Origin: Halorussus amylolyticus
GTDB taxonomy: Archaea; Halobacteriota; Halobacteria; Halobacteriales; Haladaptataceae
Reading direction: 5' to 3'
Length of the DNA stretch: 42,630 nucleotides
Assembly: GCF_004143485.2 (NCBI RefSeq)
Contig: NZ_ML974136.1
Coordinates: 101,373-144,002 of the forward strand
Each line of letters begins with the position of its first letter. Position 1 is the stretch's first letter. Below, one piece after another: positions 1,857-32,466 of the stretch. The notes beneath the pieces are model-generated. The model saw only the letters and a list, made by a program, of their open reading frames with translations. It did not search any database and was not told where the DNA came from. The position numbers and the translations under genes are program-made.

Positions 1857-2066
1857 TCAGATGTAGTGGGCCGCGACGTAGGTCAGGAGCGCGAGAAGTA
1901 CGAACGGAATTACGTGAAGCATGAGGCTGATGACCACCACGAACGGGTCCGGCGGCCACGCCGACCCGACGAGAAGCATCACCACGAAGAACGCGATGAT
2001 GAAGAGCGGGATGATGTTGACCGAGATGTCGAGCAGCGTCTCGCGGTCGAACACGGAGTCTGCCAT
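1857..2066 (-). CDS. Two-TM small membrane protein, possibly oxidase-associated
   Basis: This 69-aa protein (from ATG 2066, MADSVFDRETLLDISVNIIP) has two hydrophobic helices, roughly residues 13-34 and 40-65, with a short polar loop containing PPDPF. The N-terminal FDRETLLDISVNIIPLFI pattern resembles a haloarchaeal small-protein family that I associate with cytochrome oxidase gene neighbourhoods (DUF6684-like, from memory). No oxidase genes flank it here. In-frame ATGs at 2087 and 2102 would add only basic and aromatic residues that do not fit such a protein. It likely sits in the cytoplasmic membrane. Its function is not established. Confidence 0.65.
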   Translation of the reverse strand: MADSVFDRETLLDISVNIIPLFIIAFFVVMLLVGSAWPPDPFVVVISLMLHVIPFVLLALLTYVAAHYI

Positions 2067-2328
2067 GCTCCATCGAAACCACGGCATCCGGGATAACGAC
2101 ATCGGCCGCTTCGGCCCGAAGACGTCCGTTTCGGCACCGAGGAGAGCGACGAGTTCGGACGTGTTTTTCTATCTGAAACACCAGTATGAAAATACAAATA
2201 GGATAATCCGGCATCCTGGCCCCTCCTCTCTTATATCACCTAATTTTAAAATACCGATTCTATATTCTCACAAATACTAATTTTTGCACAGATTTCGCCA
2301 CTATCTCTCTGCAGAAAACTTTTACGGC

Positions 2329-2337
2329 TATAAATTA
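2329..2337 (+). promoter_or_regulatory. TATA box of the PIT-repeat gene
   Basis: TATAAATTA lies in an AT-rich stretch with its centre 27 bases before the ATG at 2360. It predicts a leaderless transcript starting at that codon. Confidence 0.7.
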
Positions 2338-2359
2338 TAATTGAAGCCGGTACTACACC

Positions 2360-2668
2360 ATGACCAATACGAATACACGCATACTCGGAGTCCTCCTCGG
2401 TTTCGTCGTACTCGGACTCGCGTTCACCGGAGGGGCGACCGCCGCCCCGATTACCGCCGAGGCTCCCGGTGCGGAGGCGACTCCGATTACTCACGACCGA
2501 CCGATTACGCAGTCGCCGATTACGGGTCCCATCACGGCTGACGGACCGATTACGGCCGACGCTCCGATTACCCACGACGTGCCCATTACCCAGGATGGGC
2601 CAATCACGCAAGACGGACCAATCACCCACGACGCCCCCATCACTCAGGGCGCGCCGATTACCCGGTAA
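2360..2668 (+). CDS. Secreted Pro-Ile-Thr (PIT) hexapeptide-repeat protein
   Basis: The 102-aa product starts with a Sec-type signal peptide (residues 1-29, basic start, hydrophobic core LGVLLGFVVLGLAF, cleavage near TAA|P). Almost all of the mature part is a low-complexity array with twelve copies of PIT. After an irregular start it settles into hexapeptides such as PITADG, PITHDV, PITQDG and PITHDA. The mature chain lacks Lys and Cys and has few aromatic residues. A strong TATA box supports the start. I do not know a characterised family with this repeat. Regular hexapeptides could build a small beta-solenoid or an extended cell-surface chain, and the many Thr could be glycosylated. It stands alone in its transcription unit. 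Confidence 0.85.
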   Translation: MTNTNTRILGVLLGFVVLGLAFTGGATAAPITAEAPGAEATPITHDRPITQSPITGPITADGPITADAPITHDVPITQDGPITQDGPITHDAPITQGAPITR

Positions 2669-2728
2669 TTTCGAACCGCCGCCACTGTCCCCTTTTTTCC
2701 GACGCTCGCCGAGTCCGGTCTCGGTTCC

Positions 2729-3076
2729 TCAGAGGAAATCCCGCACGTCCGAGTACCACATGTCGTGGCTGTCCACGGCATCGACTCGCCGGGCGATGGC
2801 GACCGCGATGACGTGCCAGCAGAGGTCGGTGGGGTCGTCGGGGTCGAGGTTGTACTCGCTGTCCCGACACCCACAGCCTTGCCCCTCTACGACGTACTCG
2901 TCATCGTGGCCCACGACGACCGTGAAGTCGCGGTACTCCTTGACCCGTCCCTCGGAAACCGCCTCGATAGCCTGTGCGCCGCGGTCGTCGTGGACCGACA
3001 GAATCCGGTCGGTGACGTCCGGCGTCAACTGTCCGGCCGCCGCGAGGTCCGTCTGCCACTCTTCGACCTCGCTCAC
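2729..3076 (-). CDS. SWIM zinc finger protein
   Basis: This protein of about 115 aa has an N-terminal helical part (WQTDLAAAGQLTPDVTDRIL) and a central segment with IEAVSEGRVKEYRDFTVVVG. A SWIM zinc-binding motif CxCx(n)CxH follows: CGC at about residues 68-70 and the CWH of DLCWHVIAVAIARR. SWIM domains bind nucleic acid or protein partners, and stand-alone haloarchaeal versions are uncharacterised. I chose the GTG at 3076; a GTG at 3082 is equally possible, and an ATG at 3286 would add a long basic, atypical stretch. It lies opposite the SDR gene with a spacer of about 220 bases. Confidence 0.75.
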   Translation of the reverse strand: MSEVEEWQTDLAAAGQLTPDVTDRILSVHDDRGAQAIEAVSEGRVKEYRDFTVVVGHDDEYVVEGQGCGCRDSEYNLDPDDPTDLCWHVIAVAIARRVDAVDSHDMWYSDVRDFL

Positions 3077-3295: not shown

Positions 3296-4081
3296 ATGGA
3301 CCTCGGATTAGCGGGCGATTCGGCACTGGTGACGGCGAGTTCGAGCGGTCTCGGCCGGGCCTCGGCGAAGGCCCTCGCGGCCGAAGGCGCGAACGTCGCA
3401 CTCTGTTCGCGCGGCGGCGAGAAACTCACCGACGCCGAGAAGGAAATCGACGCCGCGGGCGACGGCGACGTGCTCGCGGTCGAGTGCGACATCACCGACC
3501 CCGACGAAATCGAGGCGCTGGTCGAGGCGACCGTCTCGGAGTTCGGCGGCTTGGACCACGTCGTGACCTCGGCGGGCGGCCCGCCGAGCGGGTCGTTCCT
3601 CGACACCACCGAGCGCGACTGGTACGAGGCCTACGACCTGCTCGTGATGAGCGTGGTCTGGCTGAGCAAGGCCGCCCATCCCCACCTCGTCGAGAGCGAT
3701 TCGGGCACCATCGTCAACGTCACGTCCACGAGCGTCCGGGAGGCCATCGACGGTCTCGTCCTCTCGAACGCGGTCCGCCGGGGCGTCATCGGCCTGATGA
3801 AGACCCAGGCCCGCGAGTGGGCTCCCGACGTGCGGGTCAACGCGGTCCTCCCCGGCGCACACGAGACGCCCCGAATCACCGACCTCGTGGACGCCGCGGT
3901 CGAGCGCGGCGAGTACGACACCTACGACGAGGGGCTCGCAGCGTGGTCCGAGGACATCCCGATGGACCGCGTCGGCGACCCCCGAGAACTCGGAGACACC
4001 GTGGCGTTCCTCTCCAGCGACCGCGCGAGTTTCGTCAACGGCACCGCGCTCCCCATCGACGGCGGCCGACTCCGAAGCTGA
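3296..4081 (+). CDS. SDR family oxidoreductase without the Tyr-x3-Lys pair
   Basis: This 261-aa Rossmann-fold protein belongs to the short-chain dehydrogenase/reductase superfamily. The nucleotide-binding motif is TASSSGLG instead of TGxxxGxG, AGGPP replaces NNAG, and the C-terminal GTALPIDGGRLRS is typical. The usual catalytic YxxxK is replaced by LSNAVR. This matches the subgroup annotated as beta-ketoacyl-ACP-reductase-like SDRs with an imperfect catalytic tetrad. Activity with a different mechanism, or a non-reductase role, is likely. The ATG at 3296 fits; an in-frame GTG-type start at 3269 adds nine residues. The gene abuts the diphthamide ligase gene with no spacer. Confidence 0.85.
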   Translation: MDLGLAGDSALVTASSSGLGRASAKALAAEGANVALCSRGGEKLTDAEKEIDAAGDGDVLAVECDITDPDEIEALVEATVSEFGGLDHVVTSAGGPPSGSFLDTTERDWYEAYDLLVMSVVWLSKAAHPHLVESDSGTIVNVTSTSVREAIDGLVLSNAVRRGVIGLMKTQAREWAPDVRVNAVLPGAHETPRITDLVDAAVERGEYDTYDEGLAAWSEDIPMDRVGDPRELGDTVAFLSSDRASFVNGTALPIDGGRLRS

Positions 4082-4753
4082 ATGGCGACGGTCCTCTCGT
4101 GGAGCGGCGGCAAGGACGCCGCGTTCGCGCTCCGGGAGATGCGCCGGTCCGACGCCGACGTGGTCGAACTCCTCACGACCGTTTCGGCCGCAAACGACCG
4201 TTCCAGCATGCACGGCGTCCGCCGGAATCTCTACGAGCGCCAAGCCCGTGAACTCGGGCTTCCGATTCGGTTCGTGGAGATTCCCGAAGACGCATCGAAC
4301 GAAGCGTACGCCGAGGCGATGGCCGACGTTACCAGAGAGTACGAGCGCCGGGGAATCGACCGACTCGCGTTCGCCGACCTCTACCTCGAAGACGTGCGCG
4401 CCTACCGCGAGGAACGCCTCGCGGATTCCGCAGTCGAGGGCTACTGGCCCGTTTGGGGTCGCGACACCGAGAGTTTCGCCCGCGACTTCCTCCACGCCGG
4501 TTTCGAGGCGACTGTCGTCGCGGTCGATGGCTCTGCGCTCGACGCCTCCTTCGCGGGCCGACGACTCGACGCTGATTTCCTCGCGGACCTCCCCGAGGAA
4601 ATCGACCCCTGCGGCGAGAACGGGGAGTTTCATACCTTCGTCCACGGCGGGCCGATTTTCGACGGCTCGGTTTCGATTCGAACCGGCGAGACGGTCACGA
4701 AGGAAGTCGGCGGTGGACAGTTCCACTACTGCGACCTGCTCGCGGGTGACTGA
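4082..4753 (+). CDS. dph6: Diphthine--ammonia ligase (Dph6-like PP-loop ATPase)
   Basis: The 223-aa protein has the N-type ATP pyrophosphatase PP-loop near its N-terminus (LSWSGGKDAAFAL). It also has conserved later blocks, GYWPVWGRDTESF, EIDPCGENGEFHTFV and GGPIFD, that are diagnostic for the ATP-binding family acting in the last step of diphthamide synthesis. That step amidates diphthine on aEF2 using ATP and ammonia. Its length is close to the archaeal family norm. The ATG follows the SDR stop codon directly, so the two are co-translated. Diphthamide is universal in archaea, whereas the SDR link is not explained by that pathway. Confidence 0.88.
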   Translation: MATVLSWSGGKDAAFALREMRRSDADVVELLTTVSAANDRSSMHGVRRNLYERQARELGLPIRFVEIPEDASNEAYAEAMADVTREYERRGIDRLAFADLYLEDVRAYREERLADSAVEGYWPVWGRDTESFARDFLHAGFEATVVAVDGSALDASFAGRRLDADFLADLPEEIDPCGENGEFHTFVHGGPIFDGSVSIRTGETVTKEVGGGQFHYCDLLAGD

Positions 4754-20148: not shown

Positions 20149-21102
20149 TCAGTACGTCTCGCCCGGTTCTATTGGTCCGCGGAACACCGAGTAGAGCATC
20201 ACGAAGTACGTCGCCACGAGCGGGAGCAACAGCACGCTCGCGCCGGTGAGGAGTTCGATGGACGGCGACCCGACCGCGGCGTCGGCGACGGTCAGCCCCG
20301 TCGCGGGGTCGGCGAGCGGGTAGAGCCACGCGCCGACGAGTGCGACGAGTCCGGCGGTCAGTCCGCCCGCAGTCGCGAGCGCGAGGTGGTAGCGTCCGCG
20401 TCGGAGCGCGAGGACGTACCCGCCTGCGAGCGCGACCGAGAGCGCGACGAGGAAGAGGGTCGTCGGGCCGAACGCGAGTCTCGGCGCGGCGAGCGCGAGC
20501 GCGACGACCACCAGCGCGAGGTAGGCGACCGCCGCGCGCGGCCCGTAAGCGGTCGTCTCCTCGCGGAACGACCCTCGTGTTTTCACCCCGAGAAACGCCG
20601 CCCCAGAGACGACCGTGAGCGCGACGACCGCGAGACCGACGACCACGGACGCCGGAGCGATTCCGGAGACGCCGAGCACCCAGTTCGCGGTGAACACGCC
20701 GAGCAGGAACGGCGCGCCCACGCTTCCCGCGACGAACGCGCGACCCCACCACCGGTGCCACCGCTCGTCCTCGCGTTGCTCGTAGAACTCCGGGGCGAGT
20801 CCGCGCAGGATGAGCGCGCCGAGCACGCCGAACAGCAGGAGGTAGTGTCGGCTGAACAGTCCAGCGTACACCGGCGGGAACGCCGCGAACAGGCCGCCGC
20901 CGAACACCACCAGCCACACCTCGTTACCGTCCCAGAACGGCCCGATAGCCGCCAGCAGTTGCTCGCGCTCGGTGGCGTCGGTCCGGAGCGCGAAGATGGC
21001 CCCCACGCCGAAGTCGAACCCATCGAGGAACAGGAACGCCGCGAGGAACGCTAGCACGATGCCGAACCAGAGGTCGGCGAGCGCAATTGGAAGCTCAATC
21101 AT
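20149..21102 (-). CDS. cydB: Cytochrome bd oxidase subunit II
   Basis: This 317-aa membrane subunit of a bd-type quinol oxidase has about eight helices. Typical motifs are DLWFGIVLAFLAAFLFLDGF with DFGVGAI, PFWDGNEVWLVVFGGGLFAA, FPPVYAGLFSRHYLL and LRGLAPEF. With CydA it reduces oxygen to water at high affinity without proton pumping. The start overlaps the cydA stop by eight bases, indicating coupled translation. Confidence 0.92.
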   Translation of the reverse strand: MIELPIALADLWFGIVLAFLAAFLFLDGFDFGVGAIFALRTDATEREQLLAAIGPFWDGNEVWLVVFGGGLFAAFPPVYAGLFSRHYLLLFGVLGALILRGLAPEFYEQREDERWHRWWGRAFVAGSVGAPFLLGVFTANWVLGVSGIAPASVVVGLAVVALTVVSGAAFLGVKTRGSFREETTAYGPRAAVAYLALVVVALALAAPRLAFGPTTLFLVALSVALAGGYVLALRRGRYHLALATAGGLTAGLVALVGAWLYPLADPATGLTVADAAVGSPSIELLTGASVLLLPLVATYFVMLYSVFRGPIEPGETY

Positions 21103-22531
21103 CGGTGACCTCCGGGGCGGGGTCGATGGTCGACGTCTCGCGGCCGGATTCGGCGTCGGACTCCGGGGGCTTCGGCCCGCGGCGAACGATGCGCGCGATG
21201 ACGTACGTGTAGACCGTGAGCAGGCCGAGGTACACCGCCGCGAACCCGCCGAGCGTCAGTGCGGCGTCAGTTCCGGTGAGACCGGGCGACACTCCCGCGG
21301 TGGTTTTCATCACGCCCTGAATCACCCACGGTTGGCGTCCGACCTCGGTGACTATCCACCCGAGCTCGACGGTGAACACGCCAGCGAGCGCCGACACCAT
21401 CAGCGCCTTGTGGAGCAGGCGGTCGTCGTAGAGCTCTCCGGAGTACCACCGGTAGGCGCTCCAGAACGCGAGCACCACGAACCAGAACCCCAGCGCGACC
21501 ATCGCCCGGAACGACCAGAACACGACGGCGACCGGCGGCGATTCCTCGAACTCGTTCAGCCCGGTTATCTCGGCCGAAGCGTCGCCGCCGCTGGCGAGCC
21601 ACGACGCCCCGCCCGGAATCCCGATGCCGAACAACTCCTTCGCGCGCGGGTCGGTCAGGTCCTCGACGCTGGTGGGGAACGCGATTAGGTACTCCGGGAC
21701 GTAGCTGTCGGTCTCCCAGACCGCCTCCATCGCGGCGAACTTTTGCGGTTGGGTCTCGGCGACGTGACGGCCGTAGGCGTCGCCGTGAATCACCTGAAAC
21801 GGCGCGGTGACGATGAGCACGACCAGCGCGACTTTGAGGGTCGCGCGCCAGAACTCGGCGTCGTAGTTGCCCGAATCGACCACGCCGAGGTGGCGGCGAC
21901 GGTAGATGTGATACGCCGCCACGCCCGCCATGAACAGCGCGACCGACAGCACCGCGGCGTTCTGCATGTGGACGAACATCCACGGGAAGCGGGGGTTGGC
22001 GTAGGCCGCGATGGGGTCGGTCAGCGCCACCACAGGGTGGCCGTTCTCGGTCACCATCTCGAAACCCCGAGGCGTCTGCATCCACGAGTTCGCTATCAGA
22101 ATCCACACCGCCGACAGCCACGTTCCGAGACCCACGAACACGCTGGAGACGAAGTAAAACCGGTCGGAGACGCGCTCGCGGCCGAACACGAACACGCCGA
22201 GGAACGTCGCCTCCAGCATGAACGCCATCATCCCCTCGACCGCGAGCGGGCCGCCCATCAGTGCGCCTACCGTCTCGGAGAACGCCGCGAAGTTGGTCCC
22301 GAACTCGAATTCGAGGACGAGACCCGTCACGGTTCCGACCGCGAAGCTGATGGCGAATATCTTGGTCCAAAACCGCCTGAGTCGGACGTAGAGCGCCTCC
22401 CCGGTTCGAACCTCCTTCCACGTGAAGTAGACGAGGAAGGGCGCGAGTCCCATGCTCATCACCGGGAAGATGATGTGGACGATGGTCGTCAGCGCGAACT
22501 GAAGCCGACTTGCGAGCGCGGGGTCTATCAC
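21095..22531 (-). CDS. cydA: Cytochrome bd oxidase subunit I
   Basis: The 478-aa haem-bearing subunit has the proximal His in ALTTIVHIIFPVMSMGLAPF, the FVHMQNAA block with the b558 His, and the quinol-proximal GWIVTEVGRQPW. The Q-loop is of the short type. I chose GTG 22531 (product IDPALASRLQFAL) because an SD-like GGAGGT precedes it. An in-frame ATG at 22633 would add 34 polar residues with no family counterpart. Divergent from the ribbon-helix-helix gene. Confidence 0.92.
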   Translation of the reverse strand: MIDPALASRLQFALTTIVHIIFPVMSMGLAPFLVYFTWKEVRTGEALYVRLRRFWTKIFAISFAVGTVTGLVLEFEFGTNFAAFSETVGALMGGPLAVEGMMAFMLEATFLGVFVFGRERVSDRFYFVSSVFVGLGTWLSAVWILIANSWMQTPRGFEMVTENGHPVVALTDPIAAYANPRFPWMFVHMQNAAVLSVALFMAGVAAYHIYRRRHLGVVDSGNYDAEFWRATLKVALVVLIVTAPFQVIHGDAYGRHVAETQPQKFAAMEAVWETDSYVPEYLIAFPTSVEDLTDPRAKELFGIGIPGGASWLASGGDASAEITGLNEFEESPPVAVVFWSFRAMVALGFWFVVLAFWSAYRWYSGELYDDRLLHKALMVSALAGVFTVELGWIVTEVGRQPWVIQGVMKTTAGVSPGLTGTDAALTLGGFAAVYLGLLTVYTYVIARIVRRGPKPPESDAESGRETSTIDPAPEVTDD

Positions 22532-28178: not shown

Positions 28179-29366
28179 CTATCGTGAGAACTGTTCGGTT
28201 TCGTGTGACCGCCCTTCTGTCGGCGCGACGTCGCTCACGCGCCCGCTCTGCTGGATGATGTCGAAGGCGGTCATCAGGTCGGTCCGGGAGATGAGACCCG
28301 CGAGTTCGCCGTCGGCGTCGATGACGAGCAGGCGACCGATGCCGTGTTGCTGAATCTGCTCGAACGCGGTCATCGCGTCGTCGGAGGCCGGAATCGTCTT
28401 CAACTCCTTCGACATCACGTCCTCGACCCGGTAGGCGTCGCGTTCGACTTCGGGAACGTCGCGGGCGTCTTCGAGCGTGACCATCCCGACGAGTTCGCCG
28501 TTTTTCACCACCGGAAAGCCGGTGTGGCGCTCGCGGAACATGGCTTCGAGCAGGTCGGCGACCGAGGTTTCGGGCGTCACCACGTCGAGTTCGTCGCCCC
28601 CGGTCATGATGTCGCGGACTCGGACGTTCCGAAACGCGGTGTTCATCACGGTCTGTTGGGCCTCGCTGGTCGCGCCGATGTAGATGAAGAAAGCGATGCC
28701 GATGAGGATGATGTTGAACTGGAAGATGCCCAGCAGGCCGAGCAGGACCGCGAACATCTTCCCCACTTCGGCCGCGATTCGGGTCGCGTCGGCGAACGGC
28801 CGATTCCGGGCAAGGAGCGCGCGAAGCACGCGCCCGCCGTCCATCGGGAACCCCGGTAGGAGATTGAACGCCGCGAGGATGAGGTTCATGAGCGCGAGGT
28901 AGCTCACCACGAACCGAACCGTCGGGAGACTCGCCGGAATCACGAACAGCGCGGCGTACGACAGCACCCCGAGCGCGATACTGACGGCGGGACCCGCGAT
29001 GGCGATGGTGAACTCCTCGCGCCAGTCCTCGGGCTGGTCGGAGAGTTGGGCGATGCCGCCGAAAATCCAGAGCGTGATGGAGTCGATGGGGAAGCCGTAG
29101 CGCATCGCCACGAGCGAGTGACCGAGTTCGTGGAGGACGACGCCCGCGAACAGACCGACCGCGGCGATAGTGCCGAGTATCCAAGGCGTCGTGCCGACGG
29201 TCAGCACGTCAGCGTCGAGATTCACGCCCCAGAGCAGATTCAGATTATCGACCCAGAGACCCACCTGCGAGCCGATAACCCACGCGAACACCGGTAGGAT
29301 AAGCAGGAACGTGAGGTCGAGTTTGATGGGGATGCCGAACATCCGCCCGACGGTGAAACTCCTCAT
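28179..29366 (-). CDS. Site-2 protease family metalloprotease with CBS pair
   Basis: This 395-aa M50-type intramembrane protease has about six helices. Zinc ligands are in VVLHELGHSLVAMRYG and NLLPGFPMDGGRVLRALLAR. Two CBS domains occupy the C-terminal 130 residues (VRDIMTGGDELDVVTPETSV; VEDVMSKELKTIPASDDAMT, then GIGRLLVIDADGELAGLISR) and likely bind adenine nucleotides to control activity. Substrates in haloarchaea are poorly known. It is co-directional with the HMCES gene and likely co-transcribed with it. Confidence 0.9.
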   Translation of the reverse strand: MRSFTVGRMFGIPIKLDLTFLLILPVFAWVIGSQVGLWVDNLNLLWGVNLDADVLTVGTTPWILGTIAAVGLFAGVVLHELGHSLVAMRYGFPIDSITLWIFGGIAQLSDQPEDWREEFTIAIAGPAVSIALGVLSYAALFVIPASLPTVRFVVSYLALMNLILAAFNLLPGFPMDGGRVLRALLARNRPFADATRIAAEVGKMFAVLLGLLGIFQFNIILIGIAFFIYIGATSEAQQTVMNTAFRNVRVRDIMTGGDELDVVTPETSVADLLEAMFRERHTGFPVVKNGELVGMVTLEDARDVPEVERDAYRVEDVMSKELKTIPASDDAMTAFEQIQQHGIGRLLVIDADGELAGLISRTDLMTAFDIIQQSGRVSDVAPTEGRSHETEQFSR

Positions 29367-29531
29367 ATCTGTGTGTTACCGTGCCATACCCTTAACACTG
29401 ATTGGTGGTCCCTCTCGTCTCTCGAATCTGACACGGGAATCACAATTTTTCGCACAGTTCCGGGCTACGGTTTCACTGTTCGACCGCCAACCCAAGTATT
29501 CAAGAGGCCCCCGGAGACACAGACGTACAAC

Positions 29532-30740
29532 GTGGCAGACACCGAGTACAGCAGACGGACGGCGGTCACCGGTCTCTCCGTGTCGCCGACGGACGCCACA
29601 CGACTCCGCGAGTTGGTCGAAGAGTGGAAACGCGGCTGTCAGCTCGCGGTCAACGAGGCGTGGGGTGTCTGTCACACGCGGAGTGAGGTCCAACAGCTCA
29701 CCTACGACTTACTCCGTGAACGCACCGACCTCGGGAGCCAGCACGCCGTGCTGGCGACCCATCGCGCGGCCGAGGCCATCAAGCGCGCTGGCGAGTCGGG
29801 AACCAAGCCCGAGTTCACCAGCCCCACGGTCGCGTTCGACACCCGGACGATGACGGTGTTCGACGACCGGACGGTCAGCCTCACGACGACCGACGAGCGG
29901 GTCCGATGCGACCTCGAACTCCCGCCCGACGGCGGCTATCAGTCCAGATTCCTCGACGACGAGACGTGGGAACCGGCCAAGAGCGCGCTCCACTACCGCG
30001 ACGGCGAGTTCGTCTTTCATCTCGGCTTTCGGACGCCGACGCCGGGCGTCGAACCCCCGACGGAGGGCGCGACCGTCCTCGGCGTGGACTTGGGCGTCGA
30101 GAACCTCGCGGTCACCAGCACGGCGCGCTTCTTCCCCGCGGGCGAACTCACCCACCGCCGCGAGGAGTTCGAAGCGGTGCGCGCGTCACTTGACGCCACC
30201 GGCACCCGAAGCGCGGACCGAACCCTCCGACAGGCGGGCTACCGCCTCGACCAGTTCGTGAATCATCGCCTCCACGAGGTCGCCACCGGCATCGTCTCGG
30301 AGGCCGACCGCTACGACTGCGCGCTCGTCGCGTTCGGCGAACTGAGCGAGGTCCGCGACCTGCTCCCCGACGCGAGTTCGTACCACGAGTGGCTCTTCTC
30401 GCGCCTGCTCTCGCTCGTGGAGTACCGCGCCGCCGAACGGGACATCGCGGTCGTGGAGGTCAACCCCGAGTACACCAGCCAGCGGTGCATGGAGTGCGGG
30501 TTCACTCACCCGCAGAACCGGGACCTCGATGCGGGTCAGTTCGAGTGCCTGAAGTGCGGGGCGTCGGCCAACGACGACTACAACGCAGCGAAGAACATCG
30601 CGTTCCGGTGCGTGCGGCGCGGCCCGCTGTCGTCTCGTGGCCTGGGCGCGGCGGCCTGCGCGCTCCAGTCGGGCGTGGTCACGCCCGACGACGGATTCAC
30701 GCCGTACGCCGAACTCTCGGAAGCGCCGCGGTCGGACTGA
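29532..30740 (+). CDS. tnpB: TnpB of IS200/IS605 (IS1341-type), orphan
   Basis: This 402-aa RNA-guided nuclease relative has a helical N-terminus with RELVEEWKRGCQLAVNEAWG. The RuvC pieces are GVDLGVENLAV (first Asp), ALVAFGELSEVRDL (Glu) and NDDYNAAKNIAFR (last Asp), around a zinc ribbon CMECGFTHPQ...FECLKCGA. All key residues are intact, so it may be active. There is no tnpA, and I could not delimit element ends. The GTG at 29532 gives ADTEYSRRTAVTGLSVSP. A guide RNA, if present, would overlap the 3' end and the 78-base spacer that follows. Confidence 0.88.
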   Translation: MADTEYSRRTAVTGLSVSPTDATRLRELVEEWKRGCQLAVNEAWGVCHTRSEVQQLTYDLLRERTDLGSQHAVLATHRAAEAIKRAGESGTKPEFTSPTVAFDTRTMTVFDDRTVSLTTTDERVRCDLELPPDGGYQSRFLDDETWEPAKSALHYRDGEFVFHLGFRTPTPGVEPPTEGATVLGVDLGVENLAVTSTARFFPAGELTHRREEFEAVRASLDATGTRSADRTLRQAGYRLDQFVNHRLHEVATGIVSEADRYDCALVAFGELSEVRDLLPDASSYHEWLFSRLLSLVEYRAAERDIAVVEVNPEYTSQRCMECGFTHPQNRDLDAGQFECLKCGASANDDYNAAKNIAFRCVRRGPLSSRGLGAAACALQSGVVTPDDGFTPYAELSEAPRSD

Positions 30741-30783
30741 CTGGAGTGTCACGAAAGGACGGAGAGATCTTCCGTCTCGCGGA

Positions 30784-30792
30784 TTAAATTTT
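30784..30792 (+). promoter_or_regulatory. TATA box of the ATP-grasp gene
   Basis: TTAAATTTT is centred about 30 bases before the GTG at 30819. It shows that the ATP-grasp gene has its own promoter, independent of tnpB. Confidence 0.65.
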
Positions 30793-30818
30793 TGGTATCT
30801 CGGTCGGAAGTAGCCTCC

Positions 30819-31757
30819 GTGACTGTCGTTCTAATCGGTGACGCCGAGTTGCGCGAGTTCGACCTGATAGCTGACGCTGTCGAGAGCCGAGGCGGTGAGG
30901 CGGTCTCTCTAGACGTCCGGGAGTGGCCCGGCGAGACGCCGCTGACCGTGCGGGCAGGGGCCGACGGGACCGTCCTCGGGACAGACCTGTGCTACGAGGC
31001 CGTCACCGGCGTCTACGTCGACTCGTACAACCTATTTCGGCCGTACGAACCGCGATTCCGGGAGCGACTCGACGACAACTTGTTGCCCGCTCTGAGTCAG
31101 CTCCGGGAACATCGCGGTGCGATAGAGGCTGTCGCGCGCATCTTCGACCATCATGGCGCGGTCGTGATTCCACGGCTCGTGAACCAGCGTTGGCAGGACC
31201 GCAAGCCGTGGCAACTTCACTTGTTCGACCGGGCGGACCTCCCGGTCCCCGACACCGTGTTCACCAACTCCCCCGACGAGGTTCGTGCGTTCCTCGACGC
31301 TCACGACCGCGTGGTCTACAAGCCCGTCACTCGCGGGGGCACGCCGCGAGTGACGACCGACGATGATCTGGCCGACGAGGCGCTCGACCGACTCTCTACG
31401 GCCCCCGTCCAGTTCCAAGAGTACGTCGAAGGCGTCGATTTGCGGGTGTACGTCCTCGACGGTACCGTTGTCGGTGCCGCCCGCTACGAGAGCGACCACT
31501 TCTCGTTCAAGCTCGACGTTCGGGATGGCGATCCGGTCGATGCCTATCCGGCCGACATCGATTCGGCCATCGAGGAGACAGTGACGACGGCGGCCGACCT
31601 CGCCGACCTTCGGTTCACGGCAGCCGACGTTCGCCGCCGCTCCGACGGATCTCATTCGCTTATCGAACTCAACGAGGCTCCGCGATTCGCGGTCCCTGAC
31701 GTAAAGGCCGACCAAGACGTAGCAGGTGCGATAGCGGCCCACCTCCTCGGGGCGTAG
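30819..31757 (+). CDS. ATP-grasp ligase, graspetide-synthetase-like
   Basis: A 312-aa ATP-grasp enzyme. Residues 1-105 form a Rossmann-like pre-ATP-grasp domain (TVVLIGDAELREFDLIADAV, YVDSYNLFRPYEPRFR). Then VIPRLVNQRWQDRKPWQLHL introduces the ATP-grasp fold with the ATP lysine in VVYKPVTRGG (about 168), the hinge QFQEYVEGVDLRVYVL and the metal ligands in LIELNEAPRF (about 283-285). This architecture and length match MvdD/MdnC-type peptide ligases that make ester or amide crosslinks in microviridin-like peptides, and less well RimK. GTG 30819 is fixed by the TATA distance. The convergent small gene downstream is a possible substrate. Confidence 0.8.
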   Translation: MTVVLIGDAELREFDLIADAVESRGGEAVSLDVREWPGETPLTVRAGADGTVLGTDLCYEAVTGVYVDSYNLFRPYEPRFRERLDDNLLPALSQLREHRGAIEAVARIFDHHGAVVIPRLVNQRWQDRKPWQLHLFDRADLPVPDTVFTNSPDEVRAFLDAHDRVVYKPVTRGGTPRVTTDDDLADEALDRLSTAPVQFQEYVEGVDLRVYVLDGTVVGAARYESDHFSFKLDVRDGDPVDAYPADIDSAIEETVTTAADLADLRFTAADVRRRSDGSHSLIELNEAPRFAVPDVKADQDVAGAIAAHLLGA

Positions 31758-31773
31758 GTTTGGGACCGCGACC

Positions 31774-31789
31774 CGGACCGGACGGTCCG
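31774..31789 (+). terminator. Hairpin after the ATP-grasp gene
   Basis: CGGACC and GGTCCG form a six-bp stem with a GGAC loop 17 bases past the stop codon. No T-run follows, so termination is only suggested. Confidence 0.35.
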
Positions 31790-31860
31790 CGTGTAACCGC
31801 ATTCCCTTCGTTATCTCCGAGCGATACCTGATGGGTCGAGTAAAAATTCTGCTGTTCGAA

Positions 31861-31962
31861 TTACCCGCCGAACCACGTAATCGGCGTCGGCGGCGCTTCG
31901 TCGGCTTTTCTGTCGGTCTGCTCTACGTCGCTCTCGTTGAGGTCTTCGACAAAGTGTTCCAT
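31861..31962 (-). CDS. 33-aa candidate RiPP precursor ending TPITWFGG
   Basis: A short frame from ATG 31962 encodes an acidic N-terminal part (MEHFVEDLNESDVEQTDRKA) and then DEAPPTPITWFGG. Its codons prefer G/C at third positions like real host genes, and AT-rich promoter-like sequence precedes it. A hydrophilic acidic leader, a short Thr/Pro/Trp-containing tail and a Gly-Gly end next to an ATP-grasp ligase are what a graspetide-type precursor would look like: Thr and Asp/Glu side chains would be the ester partners. It is convergent with the ligase gene, 103 bases apart. No family is known to me, and it could instead be an unrelated small protein. Confidence 0.6.
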   Translation of the reverse strand: MEHFVEDLNESDVEQTDRKADEAPPTPITWFGG

Positions 31963-32000
31963 GCTATCTGACCACAAATAAATTCATATCGTGATTACCT

Positions 32001-32010
32001 AAATATTTTT
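32001..32010 (-). promoter_or_regulatory. TATA-like element of the 33-aa gene
   Basis: On the minus strand AAAAATATTT, about 43 bases before the ATG at 31962, predicting a leader of roughly 16 bases. A second AT-rich element (31976-31984) lies closer. Confidence 0.45.
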
Positions 32011-32091
32011 CTAAAGAAATTGAACTACTCGCCTGTTCGCTCAGTCGGATCGCGGCACATCTTTTTGTTACGGCTCTCCGTACCCTCGCAC

Positions 32092-32466
32092 ATGAGCCAG
32101 CAGGCCAAGCCGCTGATTCGCCGGAGCGACGATATCGAGTACGACGACGTGGGTGCCGCCGAGGGCATGCGAAAGGGCGTCCTCGTCAGCGAAGACCACG
32201 GCGCGCCCAACTTCGCCATCCGTCGGTTCGAACTCGACGCCGGGGCGTCGGTGCCCGAACACACCAACGAGGTCGAACACGAGCAGTACGTCCTCGCGGG
32301 CGAGTACGTCGTGGGAATCGACGACGAGGAGTACACCGTCTCGGAGGGCGATTCCCTCCTCATCCCCGCGGGCGTCGTCCACTGGTACCGAAACGAGGGC
32401 GACGAACCGGGAGCCTTCCTCTGTGCGGTGCCGAACGGCGACGACGAAATCGAACTGGTGGAGTAG
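32092..32466 (+). CDS. Cupin domain protein
   Basis: This 124-aa single-cupin protein has cupin motif 1 (GASVPEHTNEVEHEQYVLAG, with the His, Glu and His-type metal ligands) and motif 2 (GDSLLIPAGVVHWYRN), so it probably binds one divalent metal. Small cupins act as isomerases, dioxygenases or sensors, and the substrate is not evident. ATG 32092 has a TATA-like TTTTGTTA 26 bases upstream; the longer in-frame start at 32020 is within the promoter region. It is divergent from the 33-aa gene, sharing 129 bases of spacer. Confidence 0.85.
   Translation: MSQQAKPLIRRSDDIEYDDVGAAEGMRKGVLVSEDHGAPNFAIRRFELDAGASVPEHTNEVEHEQYVLAGEYVVGIDDEEYTVSEGDSLLIPAGVVHWYRNEGDEPGAFLCAVPNGDDEIELVE

Follow-up and report, generated by a model that had tools for sequence, protein, structure and literature searches.

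An ATP-grasp ligase and a small precursor gene form a likely graspetide-type locus in the haloarchaeon Halorussus amylolyticus

Within a 42,630-nucleotide stretch of Halorussus amylolyticus DNA (assembly GCF_004143485.2, contig NZ_ML974136.1, positions 101,373 to 144,002; hereafter the window), an ATP-grasp ligase gene and a convergent 33-codon gene make up what is probably, judging from sequence comparison and structural modelling, a haloarchaeal RiPP locus of the graspetide type, in which the ligase would cross-link the precursor peptide and a protease acting in trans, or some other protease, would cleave it. By analogy with characterized systems, the most likely product of the gene pair is a chemically cross-linked small peptide. 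The genes themselves, their family and their linkage give the graspetide interpretation good support, and homology together with the predicted fold makes the locus a likely member of the graspetide class.

Results

The precursor gene

The precursor gene lies on the minus strand at 31861-31962 (33 codons plus stop; ATG at 31962, stop codon at 31861-31863) and encodes MEHFVEDLNESDVEQTDRKADEAPPTPITWFGG. The unmodified peptide, with its Met kept, has a calculated monoisotopic mass of 3759.700 Da, which one, two or three cross-links (18.011 Da each) would lower to 3741.689, 3723.679 or 3705.668 Da. The gene converges with that of the ligase, and their stop codons lie 103 bp apart (31758-31860); at the matching place, the syntenic locus of the closest relative, G019 (locus L004), whose ligase is 75% identical to that of the window, carries an M50 protease gene. 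Residues 1-14 of the peptide (MEHFVEDLNESDVE; 31921-31962, minus strand) are kept across haloarchaeal precursors and probably form the helix recognized by the ligase. Residues 15-25 (QTDRKADEAPP; 31888-31920, minus strand) span the region of an [ED]xRx[NSQ] motif, which is lost in the window locus and kept in M50-bearing loci. The C-terminal tail, residues 26-33 (TPITWFGG; 31864-31887, minus strand), is the same in G019 and is probably part of the core.

Relative to G019, residues 1-14 and 26-33 taken together show 6 synonymous changes and 1 nonsynonymous change (Sd 6, Nd 1; Fisher p 6.5e-5), those in the tail being synonymous only, and dN/dS over these codons is about 0.02. The residues between them differ at 11 of 11 positions, with 18 nonsynonymous and 4 synonymous changes. 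A profile built without the window peptide and without its nearest relative still ranks this peptide first among the 826 ORF segments of the window (E 1e-7; next 1.5), as does a profile made from other genera only (E 0.023; next 0.66). The 33-codon minus-strand ORF is a real gene. A 46-aa plus-strand ORF at 31831-31971 was considered in its place and rejected, because conservation follows the minus frame. When the precursor was compared with PDB chains and NCBIfam precursor families, no match rose above noise, triculamin (E 0.05) being at chance level.

Immediately in front of the precursor ATG there is an AT-rich stretch that reads as promoter-like (31963-32022, minus strand), and AT-rich sequence precedes the ATG start in 22 of 22 listed precursors. 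By eye, a TTTA-type box also recurs about 33-45 nt ahead of the ATG in several precursor genes, suggesting that these genes share a promoter arrangement in which the 5′ leader is short.

The preliminary description of this stretch had proposed a convergent 33-codon gene 103 bp from the ligase, with AT-rich sequence before its ATG, and had pointed to dN/dS as a gauge of small-ORF conservation; the leave-out rankings, the upstream sequence and the constraint on leader and tail codons bear it out on each of these points. It had also recognized no leader motif in the peptide and had suggested looking for short frames with a WFGG-like tail beside ligase homologues. On the leader it needs correcting, as is evident from the family described next; on the short frames it is borne out in part, since precursors do co-occur with the ligase but the WFGG-like tail is kept in G019 only.

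The precursor family and its leader

Near nearly every relative of the ligase there is a short ORF whose N-terminus conforms to HF[IV]E[DE]L...[ED]xRx[NSQ] and is followed by a variable core. Among these precursors are MKHFVEDLNESDVEDVENRTNTVVSTPITWFGG (G019), MDHYINDLNDEDEHRENIQHTCDGACPT (G011), MEHFIENINEEDFAEVEERENTYYTGGCIAYC (contig C1 of the source genome), MSDHYIESLDESPDFELEERENASCHGDFWRTTYFCLELA (G321), MTEDVHFIEELEERENATPIGVTTMAMGEEVGDLSLPLI (G380) and MSSDEQVHFVEDLEERTNASIATPTTLAVGEEGGGGPITMACFETGC (HArc-gm2). A peptide profile made from Halorussus alone retrieves the precursors of other genera as its top matches (E at most 0.037, against 1.7 for the next ORF). As judged by these alignments, the feature shared by the family is the leader and not the WFGG tail, which was discarded as a family signature. 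The Phhx(1,2)h leader motif, which according to PMC8939145 occurs in about half of known graspetide precursors and is not strictly defining, is absent from the precursors: no proline stands ahead of a hydrophobic pair, and HF[IV]E[DE]L takes its place.

Across the family, the C-termini vary greatly. In other genera the cores read TTxAxGEE (TTLAVGEE/TTMAMGEE in the outgroup), a graspetide-like pattern that would fit a model of leader binding and side-chain cross-linking, and a bacterial ligase homologue adjoins MTTYAVGEEGG repeats. Rings are most clearly predicted for such TTxAxGEE precursors, that of Halocatena salina being an example. At L049 (uncultured bacterium; 1861-2280, minus strand), we observed MTTYA(V/L)GEEGG repeats, partly masked with N, beside a ligase homologue.

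Two of the loci are plasmid-borne, in Halorussus salilacus and Halocatena salina, and in the public records of these plasmids the ligase and protease genes are annotated while the precursor is not (the PLSDB gene table is incomplete). Given that precursors are missed by annotation tables, this chemistry is easily overlooked. A search of viral contigs returned no relative, and a viral origin was set aside. In the metagenome-assembled genome QS_1_68_20 (L039), a ligase and a partial M50 gene were found with no recognizable precursor. A Halapricum locus (L043) lacks M50 and has a ligase homologue (2090-2878, plus strand) next to a methyltransferase-like gene, together with a candidate precursor that is divergent (4033-4137, minus strand; MAKSHFNPDLEQINEDDEPKKNEAMRMTHNGHVAT). 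At L033 and L034 (G011 and G014), M50-less ligase-precursor pairs appear by eye to lie between two A-type ATPase subunit genes, possibly a shared insertion site.

The ligase

The ligase gene is the plus-strand ORF at 30819-31757, with a GTG start at 30819. Homology, phylogeny and a structural model all point to a graspetide-synthetase-like ATP-grasp ligase. Pfam and NCBIfam matches confirm what had been described before, a 312-aa product with an ATP-grasp domain (R2K_3/RimK-like in Pfam) and an N-terminal pre-ATP-grasp region. Residues D207-x-R209, D270, E283 and N285 are invariant and each aligns with the same residue of PsnB, while the ATP-site lysines K129 and K168 are both present. A D-x-R is expected in RimK-type enzymes too, and so this motif does not discriminate graspetide ligases; the DFR-type motif and metal-binding D/E/N residues found in the window ligase are not specific to them. 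Tandem second ligase paralogues at L028 (1501-2442, minus strand) and L029 (1501-2439, plus strand) carry Gln for the ATP-site Lys168 and Arg for Lys129, substitutions by which they are possibly partner proteins instead of active ligases.

Among NCBIfam models, the ligase scores best with TIGR04187, ribosomal peptide maturase (GRASP_SAV_5884; 89 bits), followed by MvdD (54), MvdC (52) and rimK_fam (49.9). TIGR04187 is likewise the best NCBIfam match of all relatives tested; however, the window ligase and its relatives reach 69-127 bits against a curated cut-off of 350, and the window ligase thus stands outside the curated subfamily. Its scores are also under the cut-offs for MvdC/MvdD (425/475 bits) and rimK_fam (143.4 bits), and it is a member of none of these curated families. 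No PIMT was noticed beside the window ligase.

The Pfam RimK model, by contrast, matches the ligase with 31.1, over its gathering score of 21, and the fold is a shared one. Both would suit a RimK-, LysX- or glutathione-synthetase-like amino-acid ligase with another substrate, next to a small ORF that is there by chance. Several lines of evidence make this reading very improbable indeed. Against PDB chains, a profile built from 15 Halorussus homologues of the ligase gives 209.6 bits for PsnB (7drm; E 6e-61), 68-80 bits for CdnC, PruB, MdnB, MdnC and AMdnB, and 50 or less for RimK-like chains. In the tree, the window ligase falls inside a haloarchaeal clade (support 100/99), and RimK-type proteins form a separate one (100/100). 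The NCBIfam scores, the profile scores and the tree, which group the window ligase with graspetide ligases, led us to reject a RimK/LysX or glutathione-synthetase function, and the conservation of the leader beside the ligase at many independent loci, together with the co-occurrence data given below, contradicts a chance neighbour. Two other genes of the source genome score above the rimK_fam cut-off.

Structural comparison gives the same order. With the AlphaFold model of the ligase (pLDDT 84.8), PsnB-precursor complexes take the first 15 places among the Foldseek matches (E 3e-27 to 3e-21), followed by MdnC, CdnC, PruB and AMdnB, with RimK later at about 1e-16. The ligase is nearest, in sequence and in predicted fold, to PsnB, the graspetide synthetase of plesiocin, and outside the RimK clade. 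It had been compared with MvdD/MdnC-type ligases, a comparison that has to be changed, as the nearest characterized enzyme is PsnB, on the TIGR04187 side. Microviridin ligases (MvdD/MvdC, MdnB/MdnC) do share its fold and enzyme class, but its MvdD and MvdC scores are far below the curated cut-offs and the precursor lacks a PFFARFL leader. The proposal that ligase and peptide form a graspetide-type locus gains support from the homology to PsnB, the tree and the co-occurrence of precursors, and a RimK-clade placement, which had been named as counting against it, was not found, as the tree separates the RimK/LysX-type clade.

The M50 protease of related loci

In most relatives, a membrane protein of approximately 300 aa adjoins the ligase or the precursor. 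It has HExGH and NPxxxGDG motifs and a weak Peptidase_M50 match; its best NCBIfam models are the daptide intramembrane metalloprotease (NF041824) and the YydH/LiaK epipeptide protease, both below curated cut-offs. Its predicted structure (pLDDT 87) matches the site-2 proteases RseP, SpoIVFB and M. jannaschii S2P (Z 8.6-11.9). Over residues 9-76, near the N-terminus, it resembles RREs that bind leaders (lasso B1 proteins, Z 5.5-6.3; CteB, Z 4.7). These RRE scores are moderate and a common winged-helix arrangement may explain them, although that region has no better match. The third gene of the relatives is hence predicted, on the basis of these models, to encode an M50 site-2-type protease with an N-terminal RRE domain. 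One RRE-M50 match (L148; G131:C1:740902-741774) contains a single in-frame TGA; the gene may be a pseudogene, or the TGA may stem from a sequencing error or a frame artefact.

Ligase, RRE-M50 protein and leader each have strong matches in the same 13 of 391 haloarchaeal genomes. There is some circularity in the positive matches of the class-wide leader and M50 profiles, since part of the matched sequences went into building them; the absences elsewhere and the leave-out tests are unaffected. In G299 and G399 the ligase matches are weaker and partial, with neither M50 nor precursor, and these are taken as other ATP-grasp enzymes. The [ED]xRx[NSQ] motif is kept at all 17 loci with an adjacent M50 gene and at one of the four that lack it (Fisher p 0.003; the comparison was made post hoc, independent losses are few, and among the four M50-less precursors that of Halapricum is weak). 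That the motif is linked to the protease is an idea only, drawn from these alignments.

Loss of the protease gene at the window locus

The window DNA aligns with G019 at 29486-31738 (TnpB and ligase, 78.7%) and again at 31857-32394 (precursor onward, 75%). About 950 bp of G019, including the M50 gene, are missing from the window locus, and no remnant of that gene was detected in the gap at 31758-31860. The protease gene has been deleted at the window locus. The source genome, which comprises 20 contigs, has a complete paralogous locus on contig C1, with a ligase (21534-22469), an M50 gene (20626-21504) and a divergent precursor.

Directly upstream of the window ligase, at 29373-30740 (plus strand), is an IS200/IS605-type TnpB (guided_TnpB, 126 bits) that is syntenic in G019/L004; no TnpA was noticed beside it. 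Some 1.5 kb from the ligase, at 28179-29366 (minus strand), a 395-aa protein has HELGHS and NLLPGFPMDGGR motifs and has the appearance of a standard site-2 protease that carries CBS domains, not one of the RRE-M50 type.

The deletion of the M50 gene relative to G019, along with the wholly changed middle of the precursor and the loss of its [ED]xRx[NSQ] motif, could mean that the window locus is decaying or inactive, its ligase and precursor being relics while the C1 paralogue is the working system. We think this quite unlikely, given that purifying selection acts on the ligase (dN/dS 0.16 relative to G019), which keeps its catalytic residues, and that the leader and tail codons are tightly constrained. 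Protease-less loci persist elsewhere as well: the local M50 is absent at G011 and at one G014 locus, and G011 has no M50 anywhere.

Composition of the window core

The window core contains Thr16, Thr26, Thr29 and Lys19, with acids only at or before Glu22. Neither the window peptide nor several Halorussus relatives have Asp or Glu after the C-terminal Thr/Ser, all acids being upstream, an order with which the usual Thr...Glu hairpin does not agree. With no acid following T26 and T29, any ring would use D17, D21, E22 or earlier acids, K19, or the C-terminal carboxylate. The Thr/Ser-to-Asp/Glu cross-linking that we infer by analogy has no simple fit with this core.

An alternative is that the ligase acts on the peptide with other chemistry, either closing a tail lactone through the C-terminal or an upstream carboxylate, or ligating an amino acid or amine with the peptide as scaffold, as in RimK-, pheganomycin- or pearlin-like systems. 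The window and G019 cores, which have Thr residues but end in a stretch of 11 or more residues free of acids, would agree with this, as would a fold common to RimK and LysX; in addition, M50 proteases release C-terminal amino acids in pearlin pathways (PMC10885120). Nevertheless, the sequence and structure of the ligase are nearest to the side-chain cross-linker PsnB, the C-termini of the family vary far more than a scaffold would, and the cores of other genera read TTxAxGEE, all of which makes such chemistry unlikely, if somewhat worth keeping in view. No pearlin PEARL (LanB-like) enzyme was recognized on reading the ORFs that neighbour the loci.

Discussion

The graspetide-type reading is best appreciated beside the plesiocin system (PsnB, PsnA2). 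The window ligase is homologous to PsnB over its full length, with 26-27% identity in structural alignment and the same D-x-R and D/E/N metal-site residues, and in both systems a separate small precursor has a leader and a core. Unlike plesiocin, the window locus is archaeal, its leader belongs to a distinct family and its core has no Thr...Glu repeat; in the window, as in several relatives, precursor and ligase are encoded on opposite strands, and many relatives add the RRE-M50 protease. This protease shares a site-2 core with the RiPP M50 proteases of epipeptides (YydH/LiaK/EpeP) and daptides, but differs from them in its pairing with an ATP-grasp ligase and its predicted N-terminal RRE, and it is absent from the window locus.

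In the mechanism we envisage, the minus-strand gene would supply the precursor, whose N-terminal leader (HFVEDL...) the ATP-grasp ligase would bind. The ligase would then phosphorylate a peptide carboxylate and link it to the hydroxyl or amine of a side chain, as an ester or amide, with one water lost per ring; we infer this joining from its homology to PsnB and MdnC. Leader removal, and perhaps product export, may fall to the membrane-embedded M50 site-2-type protease, which would read the precursor through its RRE-like domain. At the window locus, the C1 paralogue (C1:20626-21504) could act in trans, or another protease could cleave. The product might be a protease inhibitor, by analogy with plesiocin and microviridin, or an anti-archaeal peptide. 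A more elaborate picture, possible though doubtful, is a separate haloarchaeal ATP-grasp RiPP branch whose leader has two parts, HF[IV]EEL serving the ligase and [ED]xRx[NSQ] the protease-fused RRE, and in which the acid-less Halorussus cores would be closed by an upstream acid or a C-terminal tail lactone and orphan pairs would borrow a paralogous protease.

Graspetides go unmentioned in a survey of archaeal RiPPs that covers YcaO, radical-SAM, lanthipeptide and lasso clusters (PMC12144867); the same paper describes RiPPs expressed heterologously in Haloferax volcanii H1424 with pTA1228. No archaeal graspetide family is named in the main text of PMC8939145, where the leader-removing enzyme of graspetides is called unknown. 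In a 2026 study (PMC13097080), the DFR motif is called critical and one of 43 graspetide groups is placed in 'Thermoprotea' only, which we read as the archaeal class Thermoprotei. That group (group 36) is likewise archaeal and predicted from genomes, but by its description it belongs to another class and has a chromosome-segregation-like partner protein instead of an RRE-M50 protease. An M50 protease, EpeP, is thought to cleave and export an epipeptide (PMC10885120). Our search of the accessible literature found no haloarchaeal graspetide.

If the graspetide-type reading is true, ATP-grasp peptide cyclisation would extend to genetically tractable archaea, with a leader of its own and a linked RRE-M50 protease. 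The family offers about 20 precursor-ligase pairs, and it proposes a leader-removing protease for graspetides.
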